Assembly (NCBI GenBank): GCA_030373505.1
Contig: JAUCYS010000002.1
Coordinates: forward strand, 1-64,000
DNA length: 64,000 nt
From: Parasphingorhabdus sp.
GTDB taxonomy: Bacteria; Pseudomonadota; Alphaproteobacteria; Sphingomonadales; Sphingomonadaceae
Direction of reading: 5' to 3'
In this document: positions 18,464-27,274 of the stretch, piece by piece
How positions within the stretch are numbered: the stretch's first letter is position 1
How the letters are laid out: every line of letters begins with the position of its first letter
Made by a program: the position numbers and the translations under genes
Notes under the pieces: model-generated
The model's input: the letters and a program-made list of their open reading frames with translations, nothing else
Database searches by the model: none
Told to the model about the DNA's origin: nothing

Positions 18464-20455
<1,992 letters not shown>

Positions 20456-20598: not shown

Positions 20599-22053
20599 TC
20601 ATTGCGACACGTTCGCCGCCGCCAGCTGCAAATCCCTGACAAATTTGGCATATTCCACCTGCCGCCCCTGCTCGTCCGGAATGCGCAGCAGATAGGACGG
20701 GTGCACCGTCACCAGCAGCGAGCGGCCTTCCGGCCCCGGCAGGATTTCGCCGCGGTGGCGGGCGATCTTGACCGGCTGGCCAGTCAGGCTGCGGGCGGCG
20801 GTGGCGCCGAGGGCGAGAATCAGGCGGGGGTTGACCAGGCGGATTTCCTGCTCGACCCACCAGCGGTAATAGGCGATCTCTCCGGCATTGGGCGTCTCGT
20901 GGATGCGGCGCTTGCCGCGCGGGGAGAATTTGAAGCGCTTGACGGCGTTGGTCAGGAAGGTCTGCTGGCGGTCGATCCCGGCCTCGGCCAAGGCGCGATC
21001 GAGCAGCTGGCCGGCGGGGCCCACGAAGGGTAAGCTCTGGCGGTCTTCCTGGTCGCCGGGCTGCTCGCCGATGATCATCAGCTCTGCCTGATCGGGGCCG
21101 GCGCCGCGCACCAGCGTGGGGGAGGATTTTTCCATTGGCGCATCGGGCTGGCGTTCCAGCATCCGGTAGAGCTGGTCGAGCGAGGCCGGCAGCTCTGCCA
21201 CGGTTTCCCTCGGCCGGTCGTGGATCGGCAGGGTTTCGCCGGGCCGGGCGACCATCGCCGCGACCCGCGTTCCGGCCTGTTCGAGCAGCGCCGGGATCAG
21301 CTCCGCCTCTGGCAGGTTCTTCCAGTATTTCATCGGCATTTCCGACTTCATCGCATTGATATTCACCCGCGCCGGGTTGAAGATATGGGCATAATAAGTG
21401 CGCCATTCTGCCTCGACCACATCTTGCTGCGGCACATCCTCCTTGCGGCCGCCGGGGCCGACCGCCAGCGCCTTGCCGTCCCAGGCGATGCTGGCGCCCG
21501 GGGTGACGATCAGCCAGTCCATGCCGGTGAAGCGGTTGCGGAAAAAGGGAGCGACCGCGGCGGTGATATGATGATCGGGCTCGAACCAGGCGACAAATTG
21601 CTCGCGGTCGCCGCTCTCGCCGATTTTGCGGAAGCGGACAAAGGCGTGCATCTTGTGGATATCGCGGCGGATCGCCTTGGCGTAGCCGTTGAGTTTGAGC
21701 ACGTCCGGGTCGGCGGGGTTGTGGTGCAGGCCGGGAACCGACTGGGCGCGCCAGAGGGTGCGGTAGGCGAGATCGAAGCGGTCGGGATTGCGGTGCAGCA
21801 GGGCGCTGTTGATCAGCGCGAGCAGGTCTTTCGCAATGCGGACCGGGCGGAGCGATTGTGGGGCATCGGCGGTCGGCAGGCTGGCGGGCGGGGACAGGTC
21901 GAGTTCGCCGTCGTCCGGGCGGCCCTCGACCAGCCAGCTGACCGCCTCCGGCGCGATGCCGTGCTGCAGCAGCCGCCGCGCCGCGTCGCGCCAGCCCTCG
22001 CGGTCGGTCTCTCCGGACAGGGTGATGCGATAGTGATGGCGTCCGGACATCAT
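20599..22053 (-). CDS. DUF4130-UdgX fusion, uracil-DNA-binding repair protein
   Basis: 484 residues. The N-terminal half (about 1-255) is the DUF4130/TIGR03915-type domain: PVRIAKDLLALINSALLHRN, RFRKIGESGDREQFVAWFEPDHH and IFNPARVNINAMKSEMPMKYW in separate blocks. The C-terminal half is a family 4-like uracil-DNA glycosylase of the UdgX class: GEQPGDQED, FVGPAGQLLDRAL, the diagnostic loop RGKRRIHETP, and TVHPSYLLR. In mycobacterial UdgX the histidine of KRRIH bonds covalently to the DNA after uracil removal. The whole protein contains no cysteine, so the [4Fe-4S] cluster of typical family members cannot form. It lies 10 bp after the radical SAM gene, so the two are co-transcribed. Confidence 0.92.
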   Translation of the reverse strand: MMSGRHHYRITLSGETDREGWRDAARRLLQHGIAPEAVSWLVEGRPDDGELDLSPPASLPTADAPQSLRPVRIAKDLLALINSALLHRNPDRFDLAYRTLWRAQSVPGLHHNPADPDVLKLNGYAKAIRRDIHKMHAFVRFRKIGESGDREQFVAWFEPDHHITAAVAPFFRNRFTGMDWLIVTPGASIAWDGKALAVGPGGRKEDVPQQDVVEAEWRTYYAHIFNPARVNINAMKSEMPMKYWKNLPEAELIPALLEQAGTRVAAMVARPGETLPIHDRPRETVAELPASLDQLYRMLERQPDAPMEKSSPTLVRGAGPDQAELMIIGEQPGDQEDRQSLPFVGPAGQLLDRALAEAGIDRQQTFLTNAVKRFKFSPRGKRRIHETPNAGEIAYYRWWVEQEIRLVNPRLILALGATAARSLTGQPVKIARHRGEILPGPEGRSLLVTVHPSYLLRIPDEQGRQVEYAKFVRDLQLAAANVSQ

Positions 22054-22063
22054 GCGCGGGCGC

Positions 22064-23305
22064 CTAGGCGGGAAACAGGCTAAGCTGTTCGGGCGGCGGC
22101 TTCAGCCGGTCGTAGAGGCTGAGCGAATCCAGCTGCTTGCCCGGATGCCAGTCGAGCGCGGTGATGAAGGGCAGGATCTTGCGGACGGACTGGCAGATGC
22201 GTTCGAGATCAGCCAGCCGCAGGCCGGAAAAGCGGCGCGCCTGCAGGATCTTGCCGACGCCCTTGCCGCCGAGGCCGGGGATACGGAGCAGGCTTTCCCT
22301 GTCGGCGCGGTTGATATCGACCGGGAAGCGGGCTCGGTTCTGCAGCGCCCAGGCAAGCTTCGGGTCGATGGTCAGGTCGAGCTGACCGGCGGCGCCGCCC
22401 TCCATGATCTCTGCCACGGAAAAACCGTAGAAGCGCAGCAGCCAGTCGGCCTGGTAGAGGCGGTGCTCGCGCATCAGCGGCGGGGCCTGCGGCGGCAGGT
22501 TGCTGCTGGCGTCCGGGATCGGGCTGAAGGCGGAATAATAGATGCGCTTGAGGCCATAGCTGCCGTAGAGGCCATTGCTGGTGGTCAGGATTTTCGCGTC
22601 GTCGGAGGCATCGGCGCCGATGATCATCTGGGTGCTGTGGCCGCCGGGGGCGAAGAGCGGTGCCTTGCGGGAGGTCTTGCGCTCCGCCTTCGCCTCGCGG
22701 ACCTGCCTGCCGAGATTGTCCATCGTCTTGCGGATCAGCTTGCCATCCTTTTCCGGCGCCAGCCGGGTGATGGATTCGTCATCGGGCAGCTCGATATTGA
22801 TCGACAGCCGGTCGGCGTAGAGCCCGGCGCGCTTCAGCAGATCGGGATCGGCCTCGGGGATAGTCTTGAGGTGAATATAGCCGCCGAAGCGGTGGACGAC
22901 CCGCAGCCGGCGAGCGACCTCGACCAGCTGCTCCATCGTATAGTCGGGGCTGCGGATGATGCCGGAGGAGAGGAACAGGCCCTCGATATAGTTGCGCTTG
23001 TAGAAGTCGAGCGTGAGGTCGACGATTTCCTGCACGGTGAAGGCGGCGCGGCGGACGTTGCTCGACGAGCGGTTGATGCAATAGAGGCAGTCGAACATGC
23101 AGTAATTGGTCATCAGGATTTTCAGCAGCGAGATGCAGCGGCCGTCGGGGGCGTAGCTGTGGCAGATGCCCATGCCGCCGGTCGAGCCGATGCCGCCGGA
23201 TTTGGCCGAGTTGCGCTTGACCGAACCGCTCGAGGCGCAGGATGCGTCATATTTGGCGGCGTCGGCGAGAATCGCCAGTTTTTCGGAACGGTCAAGTTTG
23301 GACAT
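22064..23305 (-). CDS. Putative DNA modification/repair radical SAM protein
   Basis: 413 residues, matching the TIGR03916-type family usually paired with UdgX/DUF4130 proteins. The radical SAM cluster motif is NYCMFDCLYC (CxxxCxxC) near residue 70, preceded by CHSYAPDGRCISLLK with two further cysteines. The C-terminus has a helix-hairpin-helix (RIPGLGGKGVGKILQARR), suggesting DNA binding. The family is predicted to act on damaged or modified DNA, with no reaction proven that I know of. It is the first gene of the operon with the UdgX fusion. Confidence 0.92.
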   Translation of the reverse strand: MSKLDRSEKLAILADAAKYDASCASSGSVKRNSAKSGGIGSTGGMGICHSYAPDGRCISLLKILMTNYCMFDCLYCINRSSSNVRRAAFTVQEIVDLTLDFYKRNYIEGLFLSSGIIRSPDYTMEQLVEVARRLRVVHRFGGYIHLKTIPEADPDLLKRAGLYADRLSINIELPDDESITRLAPEKDGKLIRKTMDNLGRQVREAKAERKTSRKAPLFAPGGHSTQMIIGADASDDAKILTTSNGLYGSYGLKRIYYSAFSPIPDASSNLPPQAPPLMREHRLYQADWLLRFYGFSVAEIMEGGAAGQLDLTIDPKLAWALQNRARFPVDINRADRESLLRIPGLGGKGVGKILQARRFSGLRLADLERICQSVRKILPFITALDWHPGKQLDSLSLYDRLKPPPEQLSLFPA

Positions 23306-23449: not shown

Positions 23450-24217
23450 CTACAGGCCCTGACCGCCGGAGACCTCGATCCGCTGGGCATTGACCCAGCG
23501 GTTGCCGGGGGTCAGCAGGCTGGCGATCATCATCCCGATATCGTCCGGCACGCCCACACGGCCCAGAGCAGTCACCTCGGCCAGTTGGCGGTTGATTTCA
23601 GGATTGTCGCGGACCACGCCGCCGCCGAAATCGGTTTCGATCGCGCCCGGGGCAACGGTGTTGGCGGTAATGCCGCGCGCGCCAAATTCCTTGGCCATAT
23701 AGCGGGTCATCACCTCGACCGCGCCTTTCATCACCGCATAGGCGGCATAGCCCGGCAGCGCCATGCGCGTCAGTCCCGATGAAATATTCACGATACGCCC
23801 GTTGTCGGCAATGATCGGCAGCAGCGTCTGGGTGAGGAAGAAGACGCCCTTGACGTGGACGTTCACCAGGCCATCGAACTGCGCCTCGCTGGTCTCGGCA
23901 AAGGGTGCATAGTCGCCGTGGCCGGCGTTGTTGACCAGATAGTCGATATCGTCCCTGCCCCACTCGTCCCGGATGGCAGCGGCCAGATCGTCGCGGAACT
24001 TGGCAAAGCTGGCGATATCGCCGGTATCGAGCGGCAGCGCGATCGCCTTGCCGCCTGTATTTGCTATCGTGGCCACGACCTCGTCGGCAGCAGCCTTGTT
24101 CGAATGATAGGTGAGGATGACACCGACGCCGGATTGCGCGAGATGCTCGGCGGTGTTGCGGCCCAGCCCCCTGCTTCCTCCGGTGATCAATGCGAGTTTG
24201 GTGATTGGATCGGTCAT
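23450..24217 (-). CDS. Short-chain dehydrogenase/reductase
   Basis: 255 residues from the ATG at 24217 (AAGGAATTGAAC upstream); the track adds 27 false codons. Classical SDR features: TGGSRGLGRN cofactor loop, NNAGHGDYAPF, catalytic Ser in NISSG, Tyr-x-x-x-Lys as YAAYAVMKGAVE (a methionine beside the Lys), and APGAIETDF. It is an NAD(P)H-dependent oxidoreductase of unknown substrate. It is divergent from a LysR regulator with a 113-bp gap, the usual layout for a regulator and its target. Confidence 0.92.
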   Translation of the reverse strand: MTDPITKLALITGGSRGLGRNTAEHLAQSGVGVILTYHSNKAAADEVVATIANTGGKAIALPLDTGDIASFAKFRDDLAAAIRDEWGRDDIDYLVNNAGHGDYAPFAETSEAQFDGLVNVHVKGVFFLTQTLLPIIADNGRIVNISSGLTRMALPGYAAYAVMKGAVEVMTRYMAKEFGARGITANTVAPGAIETDFGGGVVRDNPEINRQLAEVTALGRVGVPDDIGMMIASLLTPGNRWVNAQRIEVSGGQGL

Positions 24218-24330
24218 GTTCAATTCCTTGTCCTGCCCGCGCCCTATTGCGGGGTTGGAAGCGATATAGCCATTCCGCACACGCAAATAATCAGGCAAAA
24301 CTTGACATCATTATTCAGTCACAGCAAACA

Positions 24331-25236
24331 ATGTCCATGGACCGGCTGGACAGTATGCGGCTTTTCGTGCGCGTGATCGAGCGGCAGAGCTTTAGCGAGG
24401 CCGCCGCCGATCTGGCGATTCCGCGATCCACGGCGTCGACCGCGATCCGCGCGCTGGAAAACCGGCTCGGCGTCGCTTTGCTGACGCGCACTACCCGCCA
24501 TGTCTCGGCGACTCTGGACGGCGAGGCCTATTACCGGCGCTGCGTCGATATTCTGGCCGAGGTGGAAGATGCGGAAACCGTCTTCCATACCAGGGAAGCG
24601 CAAGGTCTGCTGCGGATCGATGCCAACGCGTCCTTCGTGCGCCGGTTGCTGGCGCCGCAGCTGCCGAAGCTGATGGAACAGCATCCGGACCTCAAGCTGC
24701 ATATCGGGGCCGGCGACCGCTATGTCGATCTGGTCCGCGAGGGCGTCGACTGCGTGATCCGCGGCGGCGAGATTGACGACAGCGACATGATCGTCCGGCG
24801 GCTCGGGGTGCTGCGGGAAATCACCTGTGCGAGCCCGGCCTATCTGGCGAAGCACGGCATTCCCGAGACGCCCGACGATCTGGAGGGGCACCAGATGATC
24901 GGCTTTGTCTCCTCGCGCACGGCCGACGTGATGCCGCTGGAATTCACCCAGGCCGGGAAGCTCAGGGAAATCCGGCTGCCGGCGCGGGTGACGGTGAGCA
25001 ATGCCGACACCATCCAGGCGATGGCGCTGCAGGGCTATGGCCTGGCGCAATCGCCCTATTACGGCTTTCGCGATCATATCGAATCCGGCACTCTGGTCGA
25101 GATACTGGCCGATTATCCGCCCGCGCCTTTGCCGATTTCGGTACTCTATCCCAGCGCCCGCAATCTCTCGCCCCGGGTGCGGATATTCGTCGACTGGCTG
25201 ATCAGCGAGATCGCACCGCAACTGGAGACATTGTAG
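24331..25236 (+). CDS. LysR-family transcriptional regulator
   Basis: 301 residues. The N-terminal winged helix-turn-helix (MDRLDSMRLFVRVIERQSFSEAAADL, then RSTASTAIRALENRLG and LLTRTTRHVSATLDG) is that of the CrgA/AaeR-like branch of LysR, and the C-terminal part is a substrate-binding fold. ATG codons at 24331 and 24337 are both possible; neither has a strong ribosome-binding site. The track start at 24205 is too early. It probably controls the divergent SDR gene from the shared 113-bp region. Confidence 0.93.
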   Translation: MSMDRLDSMRLFVRVIERQSFSEAAADLAIPRSTASTAIRALENRLGVALLTRTTRHVSATLDGEAYYRRCVDILAEVEDAETVFHTREAQGLLRIDANASFVRRLLAPQLPKLMEQHPDLKLHIGAGDRYVDLVREGVDCVIRGGEIDDSDMIVRRLGVLREITCASPAYLAKHGIPETPDDLEGHQMIGFVSSRTADVMPLEFTQAGKLREIRLPARVTVSNADTIQAMALQGYGLAQSPYYGFRDHIESGTLVEILADYPPAPLPISVLYPSARNLSPRVRIFVDWLISEIAPQLETL

Positions 25237-25266
25237 CGGCCAAATAGCCGCCGACCGTCGCAAAGC

Positions 25267-25294
25267 TGTCACGCGCGCGTCACGCCTGTGTCAC
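25267..25294 (+). promoter_or_regulatory. Pho box: three TGTCAC-type repeats spaced 11 bp apart
   Basis: TGTCAC at 25267, CGTCAC at 25278 and TGTCAC at 25289 are exactly one 11-bp PhoB repeat unit apart. PhoB binds direct TGTCA repeats of this spacing in place of a -35 element. A possible -10 (CTAAAT, 25304-25309) follows at the usual distance, and btaA starts at 25344. Phosphate-starvation control of btaAB by PhoB is known in Sinorhizobium meliloti; here it is inferred from the site. Confidence 0.8.
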
Positions 25295-25343
25295 TGCAGC
25301 CGCCTAAATCCGGGGGAATCCATCAGGCAACCGGAGAGATGTC

Positions 25344-26570
25344 ATGAGCGTGCACGCGGGGTCCGTGAAACAGTCCACCATATTGAACGATGCGATCCTG
25401 CCCAATCGCGGCAGCAAGGCGGGGCTGCTCGAGCGCGCCTTTGCGCTGATGTTTCGCGGGCTGGTCTATCCGCAGATCTGGGAGGATCCGGTCGCCGACA
25501 TGGAGGCGCTGGCGATCGGATCGGATCATCATGTCGTGACCATCGCCAGCGGCGGCTGCAATGCGCTCTCCTATCTGGGCGCGGACCCGGCGAAAGTCAC
25601 GGCGGTCGACCTGAATGCCGCCCATATCGCGCTCAACCGGCTGAAATCGGTGGCGGCGCAGCGGCTGGACAACCACGAGGATTTCTTCCGCTTTTTCGGC
25701 CAAGCCAATCACAAGGACAATCTGGCGGTCTATCGCGAGCGGCTGCGTCCGAATCTCGACGCGGCGAGCCGCAAATATTGGGACGGGCGGGACCATTTCG
25801 GCCGGCGGCGGATAAACGGCTTTGCCACCGGCTTCTATCGCAAGGGCGTGCTCGGCAATTTCATCGGGCTGGTGCATCTGCTGGCGCGGCTGGGCGGGGT
25901 GAAGCCAGCGCTGCTGATGACGGCACGGACGCGAGAGGAGCAGATCGCGCTGTTCGACCGGCATATCGGACCGCTGTTCCGGACCGGGCTGATGCGCTTC
26001 CTCTGCTCCAACCCGATGGCGCTGTTCGGGCTCGGCATTCCGCCGGCGCAATATCGCGCGCTGGCTGGCGACCGCCATATGGCCGATGTGCTCTACGAGC
26101 GGACCCGCAAGCTGGCCTGCGACTTTGCCATCGCCGACAATTATTTCGCGCAGCAGGCCTTTGGCCGGGCCTATCAGAGCGCGGAACCCGGGTCGGTGCC
26201 GCCCTATCTGGAAGCGGCCAGCTTTGCCTGGCTGGGCGAGCGCAGCCAGCGGCTGGATATCAGGCAGCAGAATTTCATCGACTTTCTCGCCGGGCAGGAC
26301 GCCGGATCGCTGGACCGCTATATCCTGCTCGATGCGCAGGACTGGATGACCGACCAGCAGCTCAACCGGCTGTGGGGCGAGATTGGCAGGACCGCCAGGC
26401 CCGGCGCGCGGGTGTTGTTCCGGACGGCAGCGGAGGAAACACTGCTACCGGGACGGGTGGCCCAGGAACTGCTCTCCGCCTGGGATTATGACACGGATCT
26501 GTCGCAGGCGCTGACCCGACGGGACCGGTCGGCGATCTACGGGGCGATGCATCTGTACCGCCTGCGATGA
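25344..26570 (+). CDS. btaA: S-adenosylmethionine:diacylglycerol 3-amino-3-carboxypropyltransferase BtaA
   Basis: 408 residues, DUF3419 family. It transfers the aminocarboxypropyl group of S-adenosylmethionine to diacylglycerol, the first step of the phosphorus-free betaine lipid DGTS. Recognisable blocks are VYPQIWEDPVADMEAL, the SAM-binding TIASGGCNALSYL with AVDLNAAHIAL, and YILLDAQDWM near the C-terminus. GGAG precedes the ATG. The stop overlaps btaB by four bases (ATGA). A three-repeat Pho box lies 50 bp upstream, so expression is probably induced by phosphate starvation, when betaine lipids replace phospholipids. Confidence 0.95.
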   Translation: MSVHAGSVKQSTILNDAILPNRGSKAGLLERAFALMFRGLVYPQIWEDPVADMEALAIGSDHHVVTIASGGCNALSYLGADPAKVTAVDLNAAHIALNRLKSVAAQRLDNHEDFFRFFGQANHKDNLAVYRERLRPNLDAASRKYWDGRDHFGRRRINGFATGFYRKGVLGNFIGLVHLLARLGGVKPALLMTARTREEQIALFDRHIGPLFRTGLMRFLCSNPMALFGLGIPPAQYRALAGDRHMADVLYERTRKLACDFAIADNYFAQQAFGRAYQSAEPGSVPPYLEAASFAWLGERSQRLDIRQQNFIDFLAGQDAGSLDRYILLDAQDWMTDQQLNRLWGEIGRTARPGARVLFRTAAEETLLPGRVAQELLSAWDYDTDLSQALTRRDRSAIYGAMHLYRLR

Positions 26571-27274
26571 GCCTGATGGACGACATATTGCGCAAGCGTG
26601 CCAGCGACCGCCACGCCGAGCTGATGGACCGTGTCTATCGCAGCCAGAGCGGCATCTATGACCTGAGCCGCAAATATTATCTGCTCGGGCGCGACCAGCT
26701 GATCGAGGCGCTGGAGCCGCCTGCCGGCGGGCGGGTGCTGGAAATCGGCTGCGGCACTGCGCGCAATCTGGTGCAGGCAGCAAAGGCCTGGCCGGAGGCG
26801 GAATTTTACGGCTTTGATATCAGTTCGGAGATGCTGAAGGCAGCGCGCAAGAATCTGGCGCATGCCGGGATGCAGGGCCGGATCACCCTGTTCCACGGCG
26901 ATGCCGAAAATCCGGGCCGAGCGATGCCACATGCGCTGCGCACATTCGACCGGATATTTCTGTCCTTCTGCCTGTCGATGATCCCCGACTGGCAGGGCGC
27001 GATCCGCCAGGCGCTGACTCTGCTGGCACCGGGCGGCGAGCTGCATATCGTCGACTTTGGCCAGTCGGAGCAATTGCCCTCGGCCTTTCGCTCACTGCTG
27101 CAGGAATGGCTGGCGCTGTTCCACGTCGAGCCGCGCAAGCATCTGCGTGCCTTCCTCGCCGAGCTGGACAGCGAAATCGGTACCCGCAGCGAATTTGTCC
27201 CCATGTATCGGGGCTATAGCTGGCGGTTTGTCGTCCGGCTGCCGGAAGCGACAGCCGGACCCGACGAAATCTAG
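26567..27274 (+). CDS. btaB: Betaine-lipid N-methyltransferase BtaB
   Basis: 235 residues. It is a class I SAM methyltransferase: the glycine-rich loop VLEIGCGTARNL near residue 54, acidic YGFDIS after beta-2, and SFCLSMIPDW at motif IV. The N-terminal YDLSRKYYLLGRD block resembles BtaB. In DGTS synthesis BtaB adds three methyl groups to the amine made by BtaA. The start ATG overlaps the btaA stop, indicating translational coupling, and this pairing makes the assignment firm. Its end faces an M20 peptidase gene only four bases away. Confidence 0.93.
   Translation: MSLMDDILRKRASDRHAELMDRVYRSQSGIYDLSRKYYLLGRDQLIEALEPPAGGRVLEIGCGTARNLVQAAKAWPEAEFYGFDISSEMLKAARKNLAHAGMQGRITLFHGDAENPGRAMPHALRTFDRIFLSFCLSMIPDWQGAIRQALTLLAPGGELHIVDFGQSEQLPSAFRSLLQEWLALFHVEPRKHLRAFLAELDSEIGTRSEFVPMYRGYSWRFVVRLPEATAGPDEI

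Follow-up and report, generated by a model that had tools for sequence, protein, structure and literature searches.

A conserved array of 11-bp Pho-type repeats precedes the betaine-lipid operon btaAB in Parasphingorhabdus sp.

We analysed a window of 64,000 nucleotides, the whole stretch of DNA under study here, from Parasphingorhabdus sp., a marine-type sphingomonad. It contains a two-gene operon, btaAB (25344-27274), preceded by four tandem repeats in an 11-bp register and by a -10-like hexamer lying nine nucleotides past the last of them. Very probably this operon is activated by PhoB, in which case phosphate scarcity would lead to the synthesis of DGTS, a membrane lipid without phosphorus, from diacylglycerol supplied by a homologue of PlcP.

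The genes btaA and btaB

The gene btaA (25344-26570, + strand), preceded by the Shine-Dalgarno-like sequence GGAGAG (25333-25338, + strand, from sequence reading), encodes a predicted S-adenosylmethionine (SAM):diacylglycerol 3-amino-3-carboxypropyl transferase of 408 aa. The profile PF11899 (DUF3419) matches it with E 9.6e-108 and nearly over its full length (residues 36-406 against profile positions 5-384 of 385), and the protein is 51% identical to that of S. meliloti 4H41. In an alignment of 81 sequences, 97 columns are conserved in at least 97% of the sequences. The AlphaFold model is confident (pLDDT 87.5). Its best fold matches in the PDB are weak (E 0.007) and comprise SAM methyltransferases, spermidine synthases and one 3-amino-3-carboxypropyl transferase, which is in line with the known aminocarboxypropyl chemistry but is no proof of it; a sequence search of structures found no solved structure similar to BtaA by sequence.

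The gene btaB (26567-27274, + strand) encodes a class I methyltransferase of 235 aa (Methyltransf_25, E 6.4e-20), the predicted SAM-dependent diacylglyceryl-homoserine N-methyltransferase. The stop codon TGA of btaA (26568-26570) and the ATG of btaB (26567-26569) share the letters ATGA. This overlap, as well as the identity of both genes, had been claimed in an earlier note made from the sequence alone, and both claims hold: the identities follow from the PF11899 match and the identity to S. meliloti BtaA for the first gene, and from the Methyltransf_25 match and synteny for the second. Among the family loci examined, all those with a full btaA have a btaB homologue at its 3' end, and in S. 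meliloti a homologue which is 46% identical adjoins btaA.

BtaB was assigned by synteny and by this identity of about 46% to the S. meliloti neighbour, while none of the curated NCBIfam methyltransferase models reaches its cut-off on BtaB. One could therefore suppose that the enzymes do not make DGTS but another homoserine lipid, or one whose methylation is incomplete, or that they use another acceptor. We hold this to be very unlikely: btaB always accompanies a full btaA in the family loci examined, DGTS is the product of the two-gene btaAB sets found in relatives (PMC3972451), and Erythrobacter sp. NAP1, which belongs to the same order, makes it too (PMC4796936).

The promoter of btaA

All the elements of the promoter lie on the + strand. 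Starting from the gene and going upstream, one meets the hexamer CTAAAT (25304-25309), whose first letters CTA are found at this place in nine congeners; then, 9 nt away and at the place expected for a -35 element, the repeat TGTCAC (25289-25294; CGTCAC or GGTCAT in the nine congeners); then CGTCAC (25278-25283; conserved as SGTCAY) and TGTCAC (25267-25272; conserved as TGTCAY). The earlier note had described these three repeats at exact 11-bp steps, an array beginning at 25267. The three repeats are correct, their count is not: a degenerate fourth one, CGTCGC (25256-25261), stands in the same register and is conserved among the congeners (CGTCTY or CGTCGC in eight of the nine, GGTCTC in the ninth), and the true start of the array is 11 bp earlier, at 25256. 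The whole arrangement of four repeats, N9 and CTA is kept in the nine congeners. From the last repeat to the ATG of btaA at 25344 there are 49 nt, in agreement with the 50 bp or so given before, and the -10-like hexamer was also rightly placed.

A Pho box is defined by at least two 11-bp direct repeats with a unit of the TGTCAY type (PMC4415409), and the btaA promoter, with its four 11-bp units at 25256-25294, corresponds to this definition. As in Pho box promoters, the -10 element lies about 10 bp downstream in the absence of a -35 element (here N9, then CTAAAT): we found no sigma-70 -35/-10 pair upstream of btaA on the same strand.

Chance expectation

Hexamers resembling TGTCAC are common, and such repeats might be a chance match in a GC-rich sequence. 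A pattern close to the array has a single exact match in the window, where only 0.4 matches are expected even when three mismatches are allowed. The genome, an assembly of 28 contigs with a completeness of 88%, was scanned by pattern and in targeted stretches. The perfect three-repeat pattern has one match in the whole 3.13 Mb against none for the mirror control, and 12 Mb of order-1 Markov sequence yielded no array scoring as high as that of btaA. With this unique exact match, the silence of the simulated sequence and the strong footprint in the family described below, a chance origin of the repeats is extremely unlikely.

Weaker patterns behave differently. A strict two-repeat pattern matches 12 times in the genome against once in the control, the majority of matches lying within genes, while a relaxed pattern (one mismatch, with the -10) gives 16 hits against 29 in the mirror control and is not enriched genome-wide. 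For the scan of the whole genome that had been suggested earlier, the outcome is that the perfect array is unique to btaAB and that the relaxed pattern falls below its control. Hence the regulon is not definable from motif matches alone, and the case for it, as far as sequence can make it, rests on conservation and on the identity of the genes.

Conservation in the family and beyond

The closest named relatives are Parasphingorhabdus and Sphingorhabdus, of the order Sphingomonadales (the BtaA of P. flavimaris, L128, is 87% identical), which agrees with the sphingomonad-type organism supposed beforehand. The gene btaA occurs in 59 of 301 genomes of the family and in 11 of the 33 genomes of the genus; matches were obtained in 40 of 385 genomes of the class, a few of them weak. 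In a tree of BtaA, the Sphingomonadales sequences group in a single clade (SH-aLRT 98); the nearest sequences, at weaker support, are from Bosea and Beijerinckiaceae. One genome with a true btaA also has a second, distant DUF3419-like match (L102, G262:C1:1347124-1348215, 25% identity).

We scored pairs of Pho-type repeats in the 59 btaA promoters of the family. About 85% of them reach a score of at least 11.5; among the controls, shuffles do so in 7% of cases, random windows in 5% and opposite strands in 12%. At a score of at least 13 the figures are 56% and, in controls, 0.4-1.7%. These promoters are mutually related and do not count as independent events, yet outside the genus the identity of BtaA is no higher than 54-62%. 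When 50 family promoters were picked on the box alone, 29 of them had [CA]TA at 8-10 nt past the last repeat; control offsets give a rate of 3.4%. In about 15% of the family promoters, among them those of the g7 loci L077, L078 and L082, no convincing box is seen; hence Pho control of btaA may vary across the family.

Other Pho-type promoters of the genome

The genome encodes PhoB (TIGR02154, 348.8 bits for a curated cut-off of 296.2). On the same contig stretch, some 4 kb from phoB, there is a pstS gene, and the genes between them are, judged by eye, pst- and phoU-like. Both pstS promoters share the four-repeat register of btaA: tandem 11-bp repeats, N9, and then CTAGAA or GTAGAG. The promoter of phoD (PF09423, E 5.4e-85) has two repeats, CGTCAT-N5-TGTCTT-N9-CTATTT, and ends about 33 nt before the start of the gene.

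A plcP-like metallophosphatase gene is found at C8:38539-39138. Its sole match in S. meliloti 4H41 is 49% identical and could not be identified as plcP by name; its scores with LpxH models are only weak. In front of it there is a degenerate four-repeat array, conserved among congeners, most of which have N9 and then CTA, the -10 being GTATGA in the present genome. Reading frames on its flanks were identified by eye as clpB, a NUDIX-like gene and a gene resembling those of NADPH-quinone reductases; we sought a plcP-agt cluster at this place and found none. It lies on another contig than btaAB. The parts of a PlcP-BtaA-BtaB remodelling route thus appear, from their genes and promoters, to be present and co-regulated.

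The promoters of pstS, phoD and the plcP homologue match that of btaA and, together with the family footprint, support the reading of the array as a Pho box. The conservation of the btaA promoter, the shared register and the presence of phoB are comparative evidence, and on this ground the sequence-based case for PhoB control of btaAB is strong.

The neighbourhood of the operon

Another possibility is that the operon is real but constitutive, or that it answers to another signal, for instance through the neighbouring LysR regulator, the repeats mattering little. The LysR gene runs in the same direction as btaA, with 30 nt between its end and the first clear Pho repeat, and no terminator-like site was found between the two genes. 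In the congeners with enough flank, however, we did not find this LysR gene next to btaA (a radical-SAM/UDG pair usually stands there), and every one of them retains the array; the Pho array is moreover conserved far beyond the genus. We judge this explanation quite unlikely and retain activation by PhoB.

In these congeners, btaAB usually lies between the radical-SAM/UDG pair and an M20 peptidase gene; in L127 the pair is on the opposite side of btaAB. In our window the pair (20599-23305) consists of a radical-SAM gene (PF04055) and of a gene which we take to be UDG-like, and as a conserved pair it also accompanies btaAB in many congeners. Between the radical-SAM gene and btaA the window has an SDR gene and, placed divergently, a LysR regulator (23450-25236). 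Copies of the M20 gene at high identity occur almost only in the congeners bearing btaA; G306 has one without btaAB, which suggests that btaAB was lost there. In L247, the M20 gene adjoining btaAB (G091:C1:3417668-3419146) has one in-frame TGA. About 5 kb upstream of btaA, at 18464-20455, there is a gene for a BCCT-family betaine/choline transporter close to BetT, with no link to the lipid operon.

Proposed mechanism

Under phosphate scarcity, phosphorylated PhoB, probably in the form of two dimers arranged head to tail, would bind the tandem array of four 11-bp repeats. It would stand in for the missing -35 contact and bring the sigma-70 polymerase to CTAAAT. BtaA would then use SAM as the donor of a 3-amino-3-carboxypropyl group for diacylglycerol, and BtaB would trimethylate the product of BtaA into DGTS, while the co-regulated PlcP homologue would hydrolyse phospholipids, supplying diacylglycerol and freeing phosphate. 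From the sequences, we infer PhoB binding, induction of btaAB, enzyme activity, accumulation of DGTS and replacement of phospholipids.

A protein of the same genome (C28:245397-246491) matches the serine palmitoyltransferase of Sphingomonas wittichii (2x8u) with E 8e-210 over 397 residues, which supports the view that a betaine lipid route would exist alongside sphingolipids. A broader idea is that a family-wide PhoB regulon (pstS, phoD, plcP and btaAB, in one promoter register) would swap the remaining glycerophospholipids for DGTS in sphingomonads whose outer membrane already bears glycosphingolipids, with a starved envelope nearly free of phosphorus in both membranes; we put it forward as doubtful.

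Comparison with known systems

In S. meliloti, btaAB is regulated by PhoB (PMC3972451) and strongly induced by phosphate stress (PMC8829014), which bears out the enzyme roles and the PhoB control stated in the earlier note. The resemblance extends to the adjoining btaA and btaB, to BtaA (51%), to the plcP-like homologue (49%) and to Pho repeats with a -10 nine bases downstream: the btaA promoter of S. meliloti 4H41, CGTCAT-N5-TGTAGC-N9-TTAGAA, has the same layout at a similar distance to the gene. The core has two repeats there, whereas here there are four in tandem, and the present host is of the sphingolipid type.

Erythrobacter sp. NAP1, which is also of the order Sphingomonadales and also carries plcP, increases DGTS under P limitation (Sebastian et al. 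2016, PMC4796936); its plcP lies beside agt and it makes MGDG/GADG as well, whereas here the plcP homologue has no adjoining lipid gene. In Phaeobacter sp. MED193, btaAB lies downstream of plcP (PMC4796936), while here they are on separate contigs; that PlcP feeds BtaAB is common to both, here as a prediction from the genes. Caulobacter crescentus, an alphaproteobacterium with sphingolipid genes, makes the PhoB-linked phosphorus-free lipid GSL-2 under phosphate starvation (PMC6445935), but this is a glycosphingolipid from a ceramide-based route and not a betaine lipid. We found no report of DGTS in Parasphingorhabdus, Novosphingobium or other sphingomonads beyond Erythrobacter, most subscription journals lying outside the search.

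The hope that a second phosphate-saving lipid route would be new to sphingomonads is not sustained, as the rise of DGTS under P limitation was already described in Erythrobacter sp. NAP1. Since work on S. meliloti has established the pathway and its control by PhoB, and DGTS is reported in Erythrobacter, btaAB is here a well-founded but essentially ordinary case of a known strategy, and opens no new class of systems. Tandem 11-bp repeats, N9 and CTA make up a testable promoter rule for the Pho regulon genes of these bacteria, and phosphate saving based on DGTS is now solidly backed by sequence in a group of sphingolipid makers for which we found only one experimental report, that on Erythrobacter.
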